In this document: positions 24,294 to 27,624 of the stretch, in pieces
Numbering within the stretch: position 1 is the first letter of the stretch
How the letters are laid out: each line of letters begins with the position of its first letter
From: Brachybacterium ginsengisoli
Lineage (GTDB): Bacteria > Actinomycetota > Actinomycetes > Actinomycetales > Dermabacteraceae
Assembly: GCF_002407065.1 (NCBI RefSeq)
Contig: NZ_CP023564.1
Coordinates: 2,728,001 to 2,792,000, forward strand
DNA: 64,000 nucleotides
Direction: 5' to 3'
Translations under genes and position numbers: made by a program
The notes under the pieces: generated by a model
What the model saw: the letters and a program-made list of their open reading frames with translations, nothing else
Databases searched by the model: none
Told to the model about the DNA's origin: nothing

Positions 24294-24776
24294 ATGAACT
24301 TTGCCGTCGGCGAGACCGTCGTCTACCCGCACCACGGTGCCGCGCTCATCGAAGAGGTCAAGACCCGCACCATCAAGGGCGAGGACCGCACCTACCTCAA
24401 GCTGAAGGTCGCCCAGGGTGATCTGACCATCGAGGTCCCTGCGGAGAACGTCGACCTCGTCGGCGTGAGGGACGTCGTGGACAAGGAGGGCCTCGAGGAG
24501 GTCTTCGAGGTGCTGCGTCAGCCCTACACCGAGGAGCCCACCAACTGGTCGCGCCGGTACAAGGCGAACGTCGAGAAGCTCGCTTCCGGCGACGTCAAGA
24601 AGGTCGCCGAGGTCGTGCGTGATCTGTGGCGCCGGGACCAGGACCGCGGCCTCTCCGCCGGGGAGAAGCGGATGCTCGCCAAGGCCCGCCAGATCCTCGT
24701 CTCCGAGCTCGCCCTCGCGGAGAAGACCGACGAGGCCAGCGCCGAGTCGATCCTCGACGAGGTCCTCGCCTCCTGA
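24294..24776 (+). CDS. carD: CarD, RNA polymerase-binding transcription regulator
   Basis: The canonical 160-residue CarD, which stabilises the RNA polymerase open complex, notably at rRNA promoters. The N-terminal polymerase-binding domain ([14 protein letters not shown]) keeps Arg25; the C-terminal helical domain has [17 protein letters not shown] with Trp85, then [20 protein letters not shown]. Numbering matches M. tuberculosis CarD. One difference stands out: residue 47 is Glu in [10 protein letters not shown] where M. tuberculosis has Arg. The next gene encodes an IspD-like protein, recalling the widespread carD-ispD-ispF order. Confidence 0.97.
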
Positions 24777-24790
24777 TCGCGTCCTCCCCC

Positions 24791-25525
24791 GTGTCGTCCG
24801 CTCCGCCCTCGGCCGCCGTGCAGCCGGTCGTCCTCGCGCTGGCACCTCCCGCCCCGGGCCTGTCCCGGGGCGCCTCGGTGCCGAGCCTGGAACGACTCGG
24901 GGGATCTCTCCTCATCGATCGCCTGCTGAGCACGCTGCACGGCGCCGGTCTGCCGGCTCCGCTCGTGCTCGCCGGGACGTCGGCCCATCCGGCGCTGCGC
25001 AGGACCCTGCCGCGGAGCCTGCAGGTGCTGGAAGCGCCCGGCGGTCGCCGGGAGGCCCTGCGGACCGCCCTCGAGCACTCCGGTGCCGAGCTCCTGCTGC
25101 TGCATGATGCGGAGCGGGCCCTCACCCCGGGCGAGGTGGTCCGCGAGGTGCTCGGTGCGCTGCACGAGGAGGACGACGCGGTGGTGCCGGTCGTCACGAT
25201 GACGGACTCCGTCAAGGAGGTCCGCGCGGACGGCCTGCGCAACATCGACCGCACCACCCTGTCCGGGCTGCAGAGCCCGCGGCTGGTGCGACGGTCGCTG
25301 CTCGAGGAGGTGCTGGCGACCGAGGGCTCGGGCGAGGACCCGGTGGACATTGGCGCATTCGACGAGATCCGATCGGCGCTCGAGCGCGGCGCGCAGGTGC
25401 GCACGGTGCACGGGTCCCACGCCGGCTTCGCGGTGCAGGATCGGCTCAGCCTCTGGCAGGCGCAGATCTCCCTGGGACTGGCGCGGGACACCTCCCACCG
25501 CCACGGCCTGGCTCGTCGCAGCTGA
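24791..25525 (+). CDS. degenerate IspD-like protein (probable pseudoenzyme)
   Basis: A 244-residue protein, 14 nt behind carD, aligning with the IspD cytidylyltransferase fold. Retained: LLLLHDAERALT (Asp106, same number as in E. coli), PVVTMTDSVKEV, and NIDRTTLSGLQSPRLV with Arg154. Lost: the CTP-binding loop (VVLAGGSGTR in the true enzyme, VVLALAPPAPGLS here), the first catalytic Lys (PSLERL replaces NKAFL) and the second (the FKIT block is FAVQD here). It should therefore not make CDP-methylerythritol. The frame is intact and codon use normal, so it is not a pseudogene. A functional ispD lies 340 nt downstream on the other strand. Start GTG 24791; GTG 24818 is possible; no clear ribosome site. 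Confidence 0.75.
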   Translation: MSSAPPSAAVQPVVLALAPPAPGLSRGASVPSLERLGGSLLIDRLLSTLHGAGLPAPLVLAGTSAHPALRRTLPRSLQVLEAPGGRREALRTALEHSGAELLLLHDAERALTPGEVVREVLGALHEEDDAVVPVVTMTDSVKEVRADGLRNIDRTTLSGLQSPRLVRRSLLEEVLATEGSGEDPVDIGAFDEIRSALERGAQVRTVHGSHAGFAVQDRLSLWQAQISLGLARDTSHRHGLARRS

Positions 25526-25540
25526 GTCGACGCCGAGCTG

Positions 25541-25852
25541 TCAGCGGCCGCGCCGGCTCCGCCACACCGTGCGGAACTCCTCGGCCATCCGACCGGGCTT
25601 GGACAGCGTGCTCTTGGGCAGGCTGCTCGCCAGCTCCCCCGGATCCCGGCGCAGGCGACGCATGAGGCGCCGCGGCTTGCTCGAGATGCGCTGACGCAGA
25701 TCGGGCAGATACGCCTCCGAGACGTCGAGCCTCGTCACGGCCCCGCACCCCGTGCACTGGATCTGGGAGACGAAGCGTCCCGCATAGACCACCACGTGCT
25801 CGGCCTCCTGGTCGCAGGCCGTGCACCGCAGGAAGCTCTCCTCGACGTTCAT
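25541..25852 (-). CDS. small zinc-ribbon protein of unknown function
   Basis: A 103-residue protein with two Cys pairs (RCTAC and QCTGCG, about 20 residues apart) that should form a zinc ribbon, followed by a strongly basic C-terminal half (RLMRRLRRDP and the final RSRRGR). This suggests nucleic-acid or ribosome binding, but I recognise no family. GAGGAGGAG precedes the ATG. It lies 10 nt downstream of the true ispD on the same strand, so the two probably share a transcript, and is convergent with the IspD-like gene. Confidence 0.6.
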   Translation of the reverse strand: MNVEESFLRCTACDQEAEHVVVYAGRFVSQIQCTGCGAVTRLDVSEAYLPDLRQRISSKPRRLMRRLRRDPGELASSLPKSTLSKPGRMAEEFRTVWRSRRGR

Positions 25853-25862
25853 CGGCTCCTCC

Positions 25863-26618
25863 TCACCCTGACCTCAAACCTAGCGCGCTGACCACGTCCT
25901 GGGCCAGGAGCAGATCCTGCGCGTAGGTGATCTTGAAGTTGGTCTCCTCGCCACGCACCCAGGAGACGGGGATGTCCGTGTACTCCTCCGCGCAGGACGC
26001 GGTGTCGGTGCCCACGAAGCCGTCCCGCGCCGCCGCCTCGTAGGCGTCGAGGATGGTCGCGGCGTGGAAGCCCTGCGGGGTCTGGACCCGCACCAGGGCG
26101 CCCTGACGCGGTCCGGGGGCGGGGGCGAGGTGATCACCGGATCCTGCGGTGGCGATGTCCGGGGCGGGGATCCCGGGGACCGCTCCCCCGGTCTCCCGCG
26201 CCGCGTGCAGCACGGCGGAGACCAGCCCGTGCGAGACGAGCGGCCGGGCGGCGTCGTGGATGAGGACGGTGTCGATGGCGCCGCTGTCGATGCGGTCGGC
26301 GAGGTGGCGCAGAGCGAGCAGCTCCGACTCCTGCCGGGTCTCCCCGCCGGTGATGATCTCCAGGGGGGAGTCCGTCTCACGGGCATCCACGAAGCGGGCG
26401 TGCTCGAGGTCGTCGGGCCGCACCACGAAGACCAGGATCCCCACGCCCTCCACGGCGGCGAGGGTGTTGAGCCCCCAGGCGGCGATGCTGTGACCGGCCA
26501 GCGGCAGGAAGGCCTTGTTGATCCCGGCCCCGACCCGGGTGCCGGAACCTCCCGCGAGCACCACGCCGGCGGCCCGGCCATGCAGGCGGGCGGCGCGGGG
26601 GCGGCGGGGCTGGGTCAC
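25863..26618 (-). CDS. ispD: 2-C-methyl-D-erythritol 4-phosphate cytidylyltransferase
   Basis: A 251-residue active-looking IspD, third step of the MEP isoprenoid route: MEP + CTP to CDP-ME. Catalytic features are VVLAGGSGTRVGAGINKAF (Arg28, Lys35), LIHDAARPLVS, VRVQTPQGFH and TNFKITYAQDL with the second catalytic Lys. The start is GTG 26618, supported by TACGAT ending 7 nt upstream; the open frame beyond is low-complexity. It is divergent from the IIB-ispF-ilvA operon, so ispD and ispF, usually adjacent in one operon, are here back to back. Confidence 0.95.
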   Translation of the reverse strand: MTQPRRPRAARLHGRAAGVVLAGGSGTRVGAGINKAFLPLAGHSIAAWGLNTLAAVEGVGILVFVVRPDDLEHARFVDARETDSPLEIITGGETRQESELLALRHLADRIDSGAIDTVLIHDAARPLVSHGLVSAVLHAARETGGAVPGIPAPDIATAGSGDHLAPAPGPRQGALVRVQTPQGFHAATILDAYEAAARDGFVGTDTASCAEEYTDIPVSWVRGEETNFKITYAQDLLLAQDVVSALGLRSG

Positions 26619-26782: not shown

Positions 26783-27100
26783 ATGCTCACCATCGCCATC
26801 GTGTGCGGCGCAGGGATCGCCACCTCCGCACTGATCGCGGAGCAGGTGCGGGACCACATCGCCTCCCGCGGCCGCGAGGCGCACGTCGTCCAGGCCACCG
26901 TGATGGACCTCCTCTCCGCCGACTTCCGTGCCGACCTGGTCGTCAGCACCGTGGACCTCCCCGACGCGCTGGGCATCCCCCGGGTGTCCGGGATGCCGCT
27001 GCTGCTGGGCACCAACCCCCAGGTCACCTACGACGACATCGACCGCCTGCTGGCACGGATCGACGAGGCGGGCTCCGGGTCCGGGGCGGCGCAGCGATGA
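26783..27100 (+). CDS. PTS IIB-like protein (galactitol/lactose-type fold), orphan
   Basis: A 105-residue protein with a phosphotransferase IIB fold. The phosphorylatable Cys8 sits in [17 protein letters not shown], like the P-loop of galactitol-type IIB. The second half has [12 protein letters not shown] and a final helix after [17 protein letters not shown]. No IIA or IIC gene is near. It has an AGGAG ribosome site and its stop overlaps the ispF start by 4 nt. It could serve a PTS encoded elsewhere or act as a stand-alone phosphoprotein; the coupling to isoprenoid synthesis is unexplained. Confidence 0.8.
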
Positions 27101-27624
27101 CCGCCGCGGCCCCGACCCCGCTGCCCCGCGTGGGCATCGGGGTCGACGTGCATGCCTTCGCCCCGGCCGAGTCCGGGCGGGAGCTGTGGGTGGCCGGGCT
27201 GCTGTGGGAGGGCGAGCCCGGGCTGGCCGGCCATTCGGATGCCGATGTCGCCGCGCACGCCGCCTGCGACGCCCTCTTCTCCGCGGCGGGGATCGGTGAC
27301 CTCGGCTCGCACTTCGGGGTCGACCGGCCGGAGTGGTCGGGCGCCTCCGGGGTGCGCCTGCTCGGCGAGGCCGCGCGAAGGGTGCGCGGGGCCGGCTTCG
27401 AGATCGGGAACATCGCGGTGCAGGTGATCGGGAACCGGCCGCGCCTGTCGCGGCGTCGGGAGGAGGCCTGCGCCGTGCTCAGCGAGGCGGCCGGCGCACC
27501 GGTCACGGTCTCGGGCAGCACCACCGATGCGCTGGGGCTCACCGGCCGTGGTGAAGGCGTGGCCGCCATGGCGACGGCAGTGGTCGTCGCCCTCGCCGGA
27601 GCCGCGGAGAAGGCGTCCGCATGA
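27097..27624 (+). CDS. ispF: 2-C-methyl-D-erythritol 2,4-cyclodiphosphate synthase
   Basis: A 175-residue IspF, which cyclises CDP-ME 2-phosphate in the MEP pathway. Metal ligands are in [10 protein letters not shown] (Asp, His) and [13 protein letters not shown] (His); [16 protein letters not shown] is the C-terminal signature. It overlaps the IIB-like gene upstream and ilvA downstream by 4 nt each, a tightly coupled three-gene operon. Confidence 0.96.

Follow-up and report, generated by a model that had tools for sequence, protein, structure and literature searches.

Complementary loss of CTP-binding and β-arm residues in two neighboring IspD homologues suggests a heterodimeric MEP cytidylyltransferase in Brachybacterium and other actinobacteria

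The MEP pathway depends on the essential enzyme IspD, which is a target for antibacterial compounds and herbicides and is treated as a homodimer. In structures of the E. coli enzyme, R157 reaches the active site of the partner subunit. The β-arm (E. coli residues 137–159) connects the two IspD subunits and holds the site for MEP (PMC11770629), and it forms the main dimer interface (PMC11770629, PMC5099578, PMC3111433). For the B. subtilis dimer, the interface is described as an arm together with a C-terminal helix (PMC5099578). R157 and K213 of E. coli IspD contact MEP (PMC11770629), while T140 contacts the erythritol hydroxyls (PMC3111433). An explicit statement of R157 acting across the dimer was not found in the openly accessible literature, and neither was a report of a split or second IspD.

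Here, a DNA stretch of 64,000 nucleotides (the window) was analyzed, which belongs to a genome of 3.95 Mb in one contig with Brachybacterium as nearest named relatives. Beginning 15 nt after the carD stop codon, a reading frame with a GTG start at 24791 is open over 244 aa and encodes a pseudo-IspD (pIspD), and a minus-strand ispD lies at a distance of 338 nt (Table 1). A preliminary description of the locus had placed this ispD 340 nt away and called it complete, which it is not, since its β-arm is degenerate. Between ispD and ispF, the window also contains a gene for an orphan PTS IIB protein of the lactose/galactitol type (26783–27100, plus strand), and what looks like a similar PTS IIB gene is present at the equivalent place in genome G032 (L034).

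Table 1. Positions of carD, the two IspD homologues and neighboring features in the window.
Feature	Position	Strand	Basis
carD, marks the ancestral carD-ispD-ispF slot	24294..24776	+	Pfam CarD_C and CarD_TRCF_RID; order in other families
pIspD (pseudo-IspD), proposed arm-donor subunit, 244 aa	24791..25525	+	Pfam PF01128, AF2, 30 orthologues
pIspD β-arm, aa 137-156 (T138-DSVK142, N151-IDR154)	25199..25258	+	Invariant positions; AF2 hairpin E130-145/E148-160
Small zinc-ribbon-like protein	25541..25852	-	Kept between both IspD genes across the genus
Armless catalytic IspD, 251 aa, CTP site intact, β-arm degenerate	25863..26618	-	Pfam 154.2 bits; sequence comparison
Degenerate, near-neutrally evolving arm segment of catalytic IspD, aa 153-174	26097..26162	-	
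ispF, later MEP-pathway enzyme, remaining third of carD-ispD-ispF	27097..27624	+	PF02542, 166 bits

The full-length IspD-like fold that had been claimed for pIspD was confirmed. The protein matched the Pfam IspD profile (PF01128) with 52.9 bits (E = 5e-14), well above the cut-off, and fell far under the NCBIfam ispD cut-off in a profile search. Its AF2 model reached a pLDDT of 88 and had mycobacterial IspDs as top PDB fold matches, the best Foldseek match being M. smegmatis IspD (probability 1.00; TM 0.73/0.79), and both the Rossmann-like core and the β-arm of the IspD fold are present. Comparison of 30 orthologues with E. coli IspD agreed with the earlier statement that D106 and the Arg of IDR are kept and that the CTP glycine loop and both catalytic lysines are lost. 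Besides the glycine loop, pIspD is without G16, R20, K27, S88, and K213; the K27 position is a gap in 93% of the aligned orthologues and never Lys, and the K213 position is Ala in 80%. D106 is retained in 93%, R109 in 97%, and K142 and R157, the latter corresponding to R154 in pIspD, in 100%. The CTP glycine-loop motif was found in 0 of 68 pIspD matches. Lacking the glycine loop with R20 and K27 as well as K213, pIspD is predicted not to be a catalytically competent IspD.

The minus-strand protein presents the complementary picture. Its score also remained below the NCBIfam ispD cut-off (161 vs. 181.3), and G16, G18, R20, K27, S88, D106, and K213 are present in 100% of 30 orthologues, the sole change among the CTP residues being A15G, which is uniform over 30/30. 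In the segment matching E. coli 137–159, T140, K142, and R157 are not conserved, and all 30 orthologues are degenerate here. The 30 pIspDs kept 4/4 arm residues and, on average, 0.9/9 CTP residues; the 30 catalytic IspDs kept 8/9 CTP residues in every case and, on average, 1.1/4 arm residues. Both sets are kept in 13 canonical IspDs of the same order, all encoded behind carD. The arm motif (D-T-x-K plus R157) occurs in 13/13 of these canonical IspDs and in 0/64 armless sequences, 60 of which contain the CTP loop, with two of the four exceptions being truncated sequences. The arm window of the catalytic IspD ranks 4 of 199 at the low end of conservation (0.43 vs. 0.87 elsewhere). In the AF2 models, pIspD has a confident arm hairpin; the catalytic IspD has none, although, at its modest pLDDT of 75, a shallow alignment may be partly responsible for the absence of the arm.

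Selection acts differently on the corresponding parts of the two proteins. According to Nei-Gojobori pN/pS values, the arm segment of the catalytic IspD evolves near neutrally (0.403/0.481, remainder 0.074/0.411), and the arm is the more constrained part of pIspD (0.147/0.434, remainder 0.298/0.479). The pIspD core is under weaker yet real constraint and may thus do more than hold the arm. Overall, pIspD evolves faster than IspD (median dN/dS 0.46 vs. 0.20). Positions invariant across 14 divergent pIspDs belong mostly to the arm (T138-K142, L149, N151, R154, Q161, P163) and to the C-terminal helix (L221, W222, A224, I226, L228, G229). T140 is replaced by Ser in Dermabacteraceae and mycobacteria and by Ala in most of the distant partners.

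Orthologues of pIspD were detected in 30 of 47 genomes of the family, including 25 of 38 Brachybacterium genomes, in which it is intact and located behind carD; with a dN/dS of about 0.46, the frame is under selection as had been supposed. Wherever the contig continues, pIspD is followed in the genus by the small zinc-ribbon gene and then by the minus-strand ispD. Divergent copies are also present in the four other family genera with ispF, the named carriers being Helcobacillus massiliensis and two Dermabacteraceae strains. In relatives from other families the gene order is carD-ispD-ispF, and ispF follows the canonical ispD in all but one of the 13 short loci, which bears out the proposal that pIspD occupies the ancestral ispD slot.

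Within the family, pIspD is present in 30 of the 31 genomes with dxr (31/47) and in 0 of the 16 genomes without it, all 16 of which contain HMG-CoA reductase; since the family genomes are related, these counts do not represent independent events. The lone dxr genome without pIspD is G032, in which the contig breaks off shortly after ispD and the zinc-ribbon gene. Where dxr and ispF are missing, pIspD and ispD are missing as well. HMG-CoA reductase was not found in the genome of the window, which therefore relies on the MEP pathway, so that this pathway must work. Differing isoprenoid pathways among species of the genus have already been published (PMC13001223). In our set, the genomes with HMG-CoA reductase and without dxr comprised 12 of the genus and 4/4 of the family genus g2, and both genes were found in four genomes (G001, G003, G004, and G030).

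The sole other close IspD homologue in the genome of the window is a TarI-like protein (L002). TarI-type ribitol-phosphate cytidylyltransferases belong to the same superfamily as IspD and are also present in these genomes; unlike the armless IspD, L002 keeps its own arm Arg (SLDRSRL). It is unlikely that the TarI-like homologue is the real IspD, because such genes, unlike pIspD, are also found where the MEP pathway is absent and are missing from the MEP-only genomes G019 and G022. In three non-MEP genomes (G005, G010, and G034; L056, L057, and L059), two opposed TarI-like cytidylyltransferase genes were found whose starts are separated by about 2.6 kb; they may represent a cell-wall polyol-phosphate locus.

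We propose, with a probability of about 0.83, that the products of both genes together form one MEP cytidylyltransferase, as the subunits of an obligate heterodimer that has a single active site. The proposal draws on the complementary loss and retention of residues, the selection on exactly those parts, the joint occurrence of both genes and their association with the MEP pathway, and the recurrence of the pair elsewhere. The minus-strand IspD would supply the CTP-binding Rossmann core (G-loop, R20, K27, S88, D106, R109, K213), and pIspD would supply the β-arm with K142, R157, and Ser in place of T140 in trans over the dimer interface. One site, composed of the IspD core and the pIspD arm, would then be complete, its MEP-binding half being finished by the arm; the other, composed of the pIspD core and the degenerate IspD arm, would be dead and unconstrained. 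Such an arrangement would explain why each half was lost exactly where it is. We infer the physical heterodimer, the action of the arm in trans, and the catalytic need for both subunits, and the trans geometry is suggested by IspD structures together with the evolutionary pattern.

If IspD without an arm depends on a partner for it, such a partner should also accompany the armless IspDs of other lineages, and this expectation was fixed before the phylum was searched with an armless-IspD profile. The search yielded armless IspDs in several other families. A separate arm-bearing homologue was present in 21/21 sampled genomes with armless IspD outside the family, comprising 20 genomes of a first batch and one (G474) of a second batch of 20 genomes; in G474 the arm-only gene adjoins the armless ispD, and such a gene was found in 0/19 genomes of this batch with an armed IspD. 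Together with 30/31 genomes in the family, co-occurrence of both subunits is thus obligate in these sets, the partner being canonical in G329. The partner is usually the adjacent gene on the opposite strand, convergent to the armless ispD. Other arrangements are a partner behind carD on another contig (f22), one beside ispF and several kb from the armless ispD (G431), and the carD-linked IspD itself (G329, canonical; G342, P-loop lost). In distant lineages, the partner is recognizable by the arm alone, e.g. PVTDALKRVDGRRIRGGVDR, with K/R142 and R157 kept. The arm motif is present in all pIspDs, including five (L163, L164, L179, L247, and L248) in which the true arm is visible and the motif counter had picked a chance upstream match (the first three) or an early match (the last two).

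Convergent pairs also occur in genomes of named Mycobacterium and Mycolicibacterium, among them M. llatzerense, and altogether pIspD and armless ispD were paired at 19 named mycobacterial loci, one of which (L170) covers only a fragment of IspD. Judged by sequence, the pair appears to recur in several actinobacterial groups, with many environmental mycobacteria among them. At the mycobacterial loci (L160–L179), the convergent frames often overlap by about 10–40 nt at their 3′ ends, so that co-regulation or mutual antisense effects may be possible.

In a phylogenetic tree, the armless IspDs form a single clade (support 85/82), and pIspD arose at least three times from canonical IspD: once among the canonical IspDs of actinobacteria (99/95), once as sister of the canonical G329a (100/100), and once as sister of the canonical L205 (99/97), with exact placements being uncertain owing to long branches. 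G329 (L211/L231), with a canonical carD-linked IspD in addition to the armless IspD, and its relative G342 (L212/L232), in which the carD-linked copy is without the P-loop and keeps the arm and K213, appear to be intermediates. The simplest story has a single origin of the armless IspD, after which the resident canonical enzyme was repeatedly free to lose CTP binding. It also seems probable to us that several actinobacterial lineages use an obligate heterodimer with a shared single site for the third MEP step, which came about when an armless IspD entered or spread among genomes and resident canonical IspDs, in at least three independent cases, degenerated into arm donors.

The preliminary description had suggested a new job for pIspD as regulatory subunit of IspD, nucleotide sensor, or CarD partner. 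Of this, the subunit of IspD is retained, but regulator, sensor, and CarD partner are not the best explanation; a catalytic arm donor is the best reading because the MEP-binding dimer arm is kept in pIspD and lost in the neighboring IspD. An allosteric or regulatory partner which binds MEP, CDP-ME, or a nucleotide, next to an IspD binding MEP in another, armless way, is unlikely. It would fit the retention of D106 and R109 in Dermabacteraceae pIspD, for which a need is not evident, and dead paralogues activating their enzyme are known from trypanosomatids (PMC5201418, PMC3663545), but it leaves unexplained that exactly the arm was repeatedly lost in one protein and retained in the other, down to arm-only remnants.

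We regard it as very improbable that the armless IspD functions as a homodimer or acts on another substrate, with pIspD serving an unrelated purpose such as nucleotide sensing or partnership with CarD. In favor of this, the arm loop of IspD could be no more than a variable segment, and pIspD lies directly behind carD here. Yet mycobacteria and other lineages maintain the pair at sites apart from carD, which does not support a CarD partner; moreover, an armless IspD without an arm-bearing partner was seen in 0/21 genomes, and both genes are missing jointly with dxr and ispF. Decay of an ispD duplicate is hardly credible: the loss of catalytic residues and the dN/dS of 0.46 vs. 0.20 in IspD would agree with it, but the frame is open in 30/30 orthologues and some 35 loci elsewhere, the arm motifs are invariant, and dN/dS is well below 1. 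A recent duplication of the neighboring ispD is ruled out, as pIspD and armless IspD lie in different parts of the tree.

A split IspD, if true, would alter how such genes are annotated, because armless IspDs and remnants consisting of the arm alone are readily labeled complete or hypothetical. An interface between two proteins would become available for study. The pair would also be a natural example of complementary degeneration that took place repeatedly and in parallel and of which living intermediates exist (G329 and G342), making it directly testable how homomers become obligate heteromers.

Compared with known IspD, the pair is alike in fold and in its MEP-pathway and carD/ispF context. 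Known IspD combines core and arm in one chain and has two equal active sites, whereas in Brachybacterium these two elements are kept by separate proteins, the armless subunit having the catalytic CTP residues and the pseudoenzyme the arm motif, and each dimer is predicted to have one active site. A catalytic subunit that is activated by a catalytically dead paralogue is also known from the AdoMetDC/prozyme pair and from deoxyhypusine synthase of Trypanosoma (PMC5201418, PMC3663545). The prozyme mechanism is relief of autoinhibition (PMC5201418, PMC3663545), in contrast to the donation of a substrate-binding arm proposed for pIspD, and the Trypanosoma systems are unrelated enzymes of eukaryotic parasites, while the IspD pair is actinobacterial.
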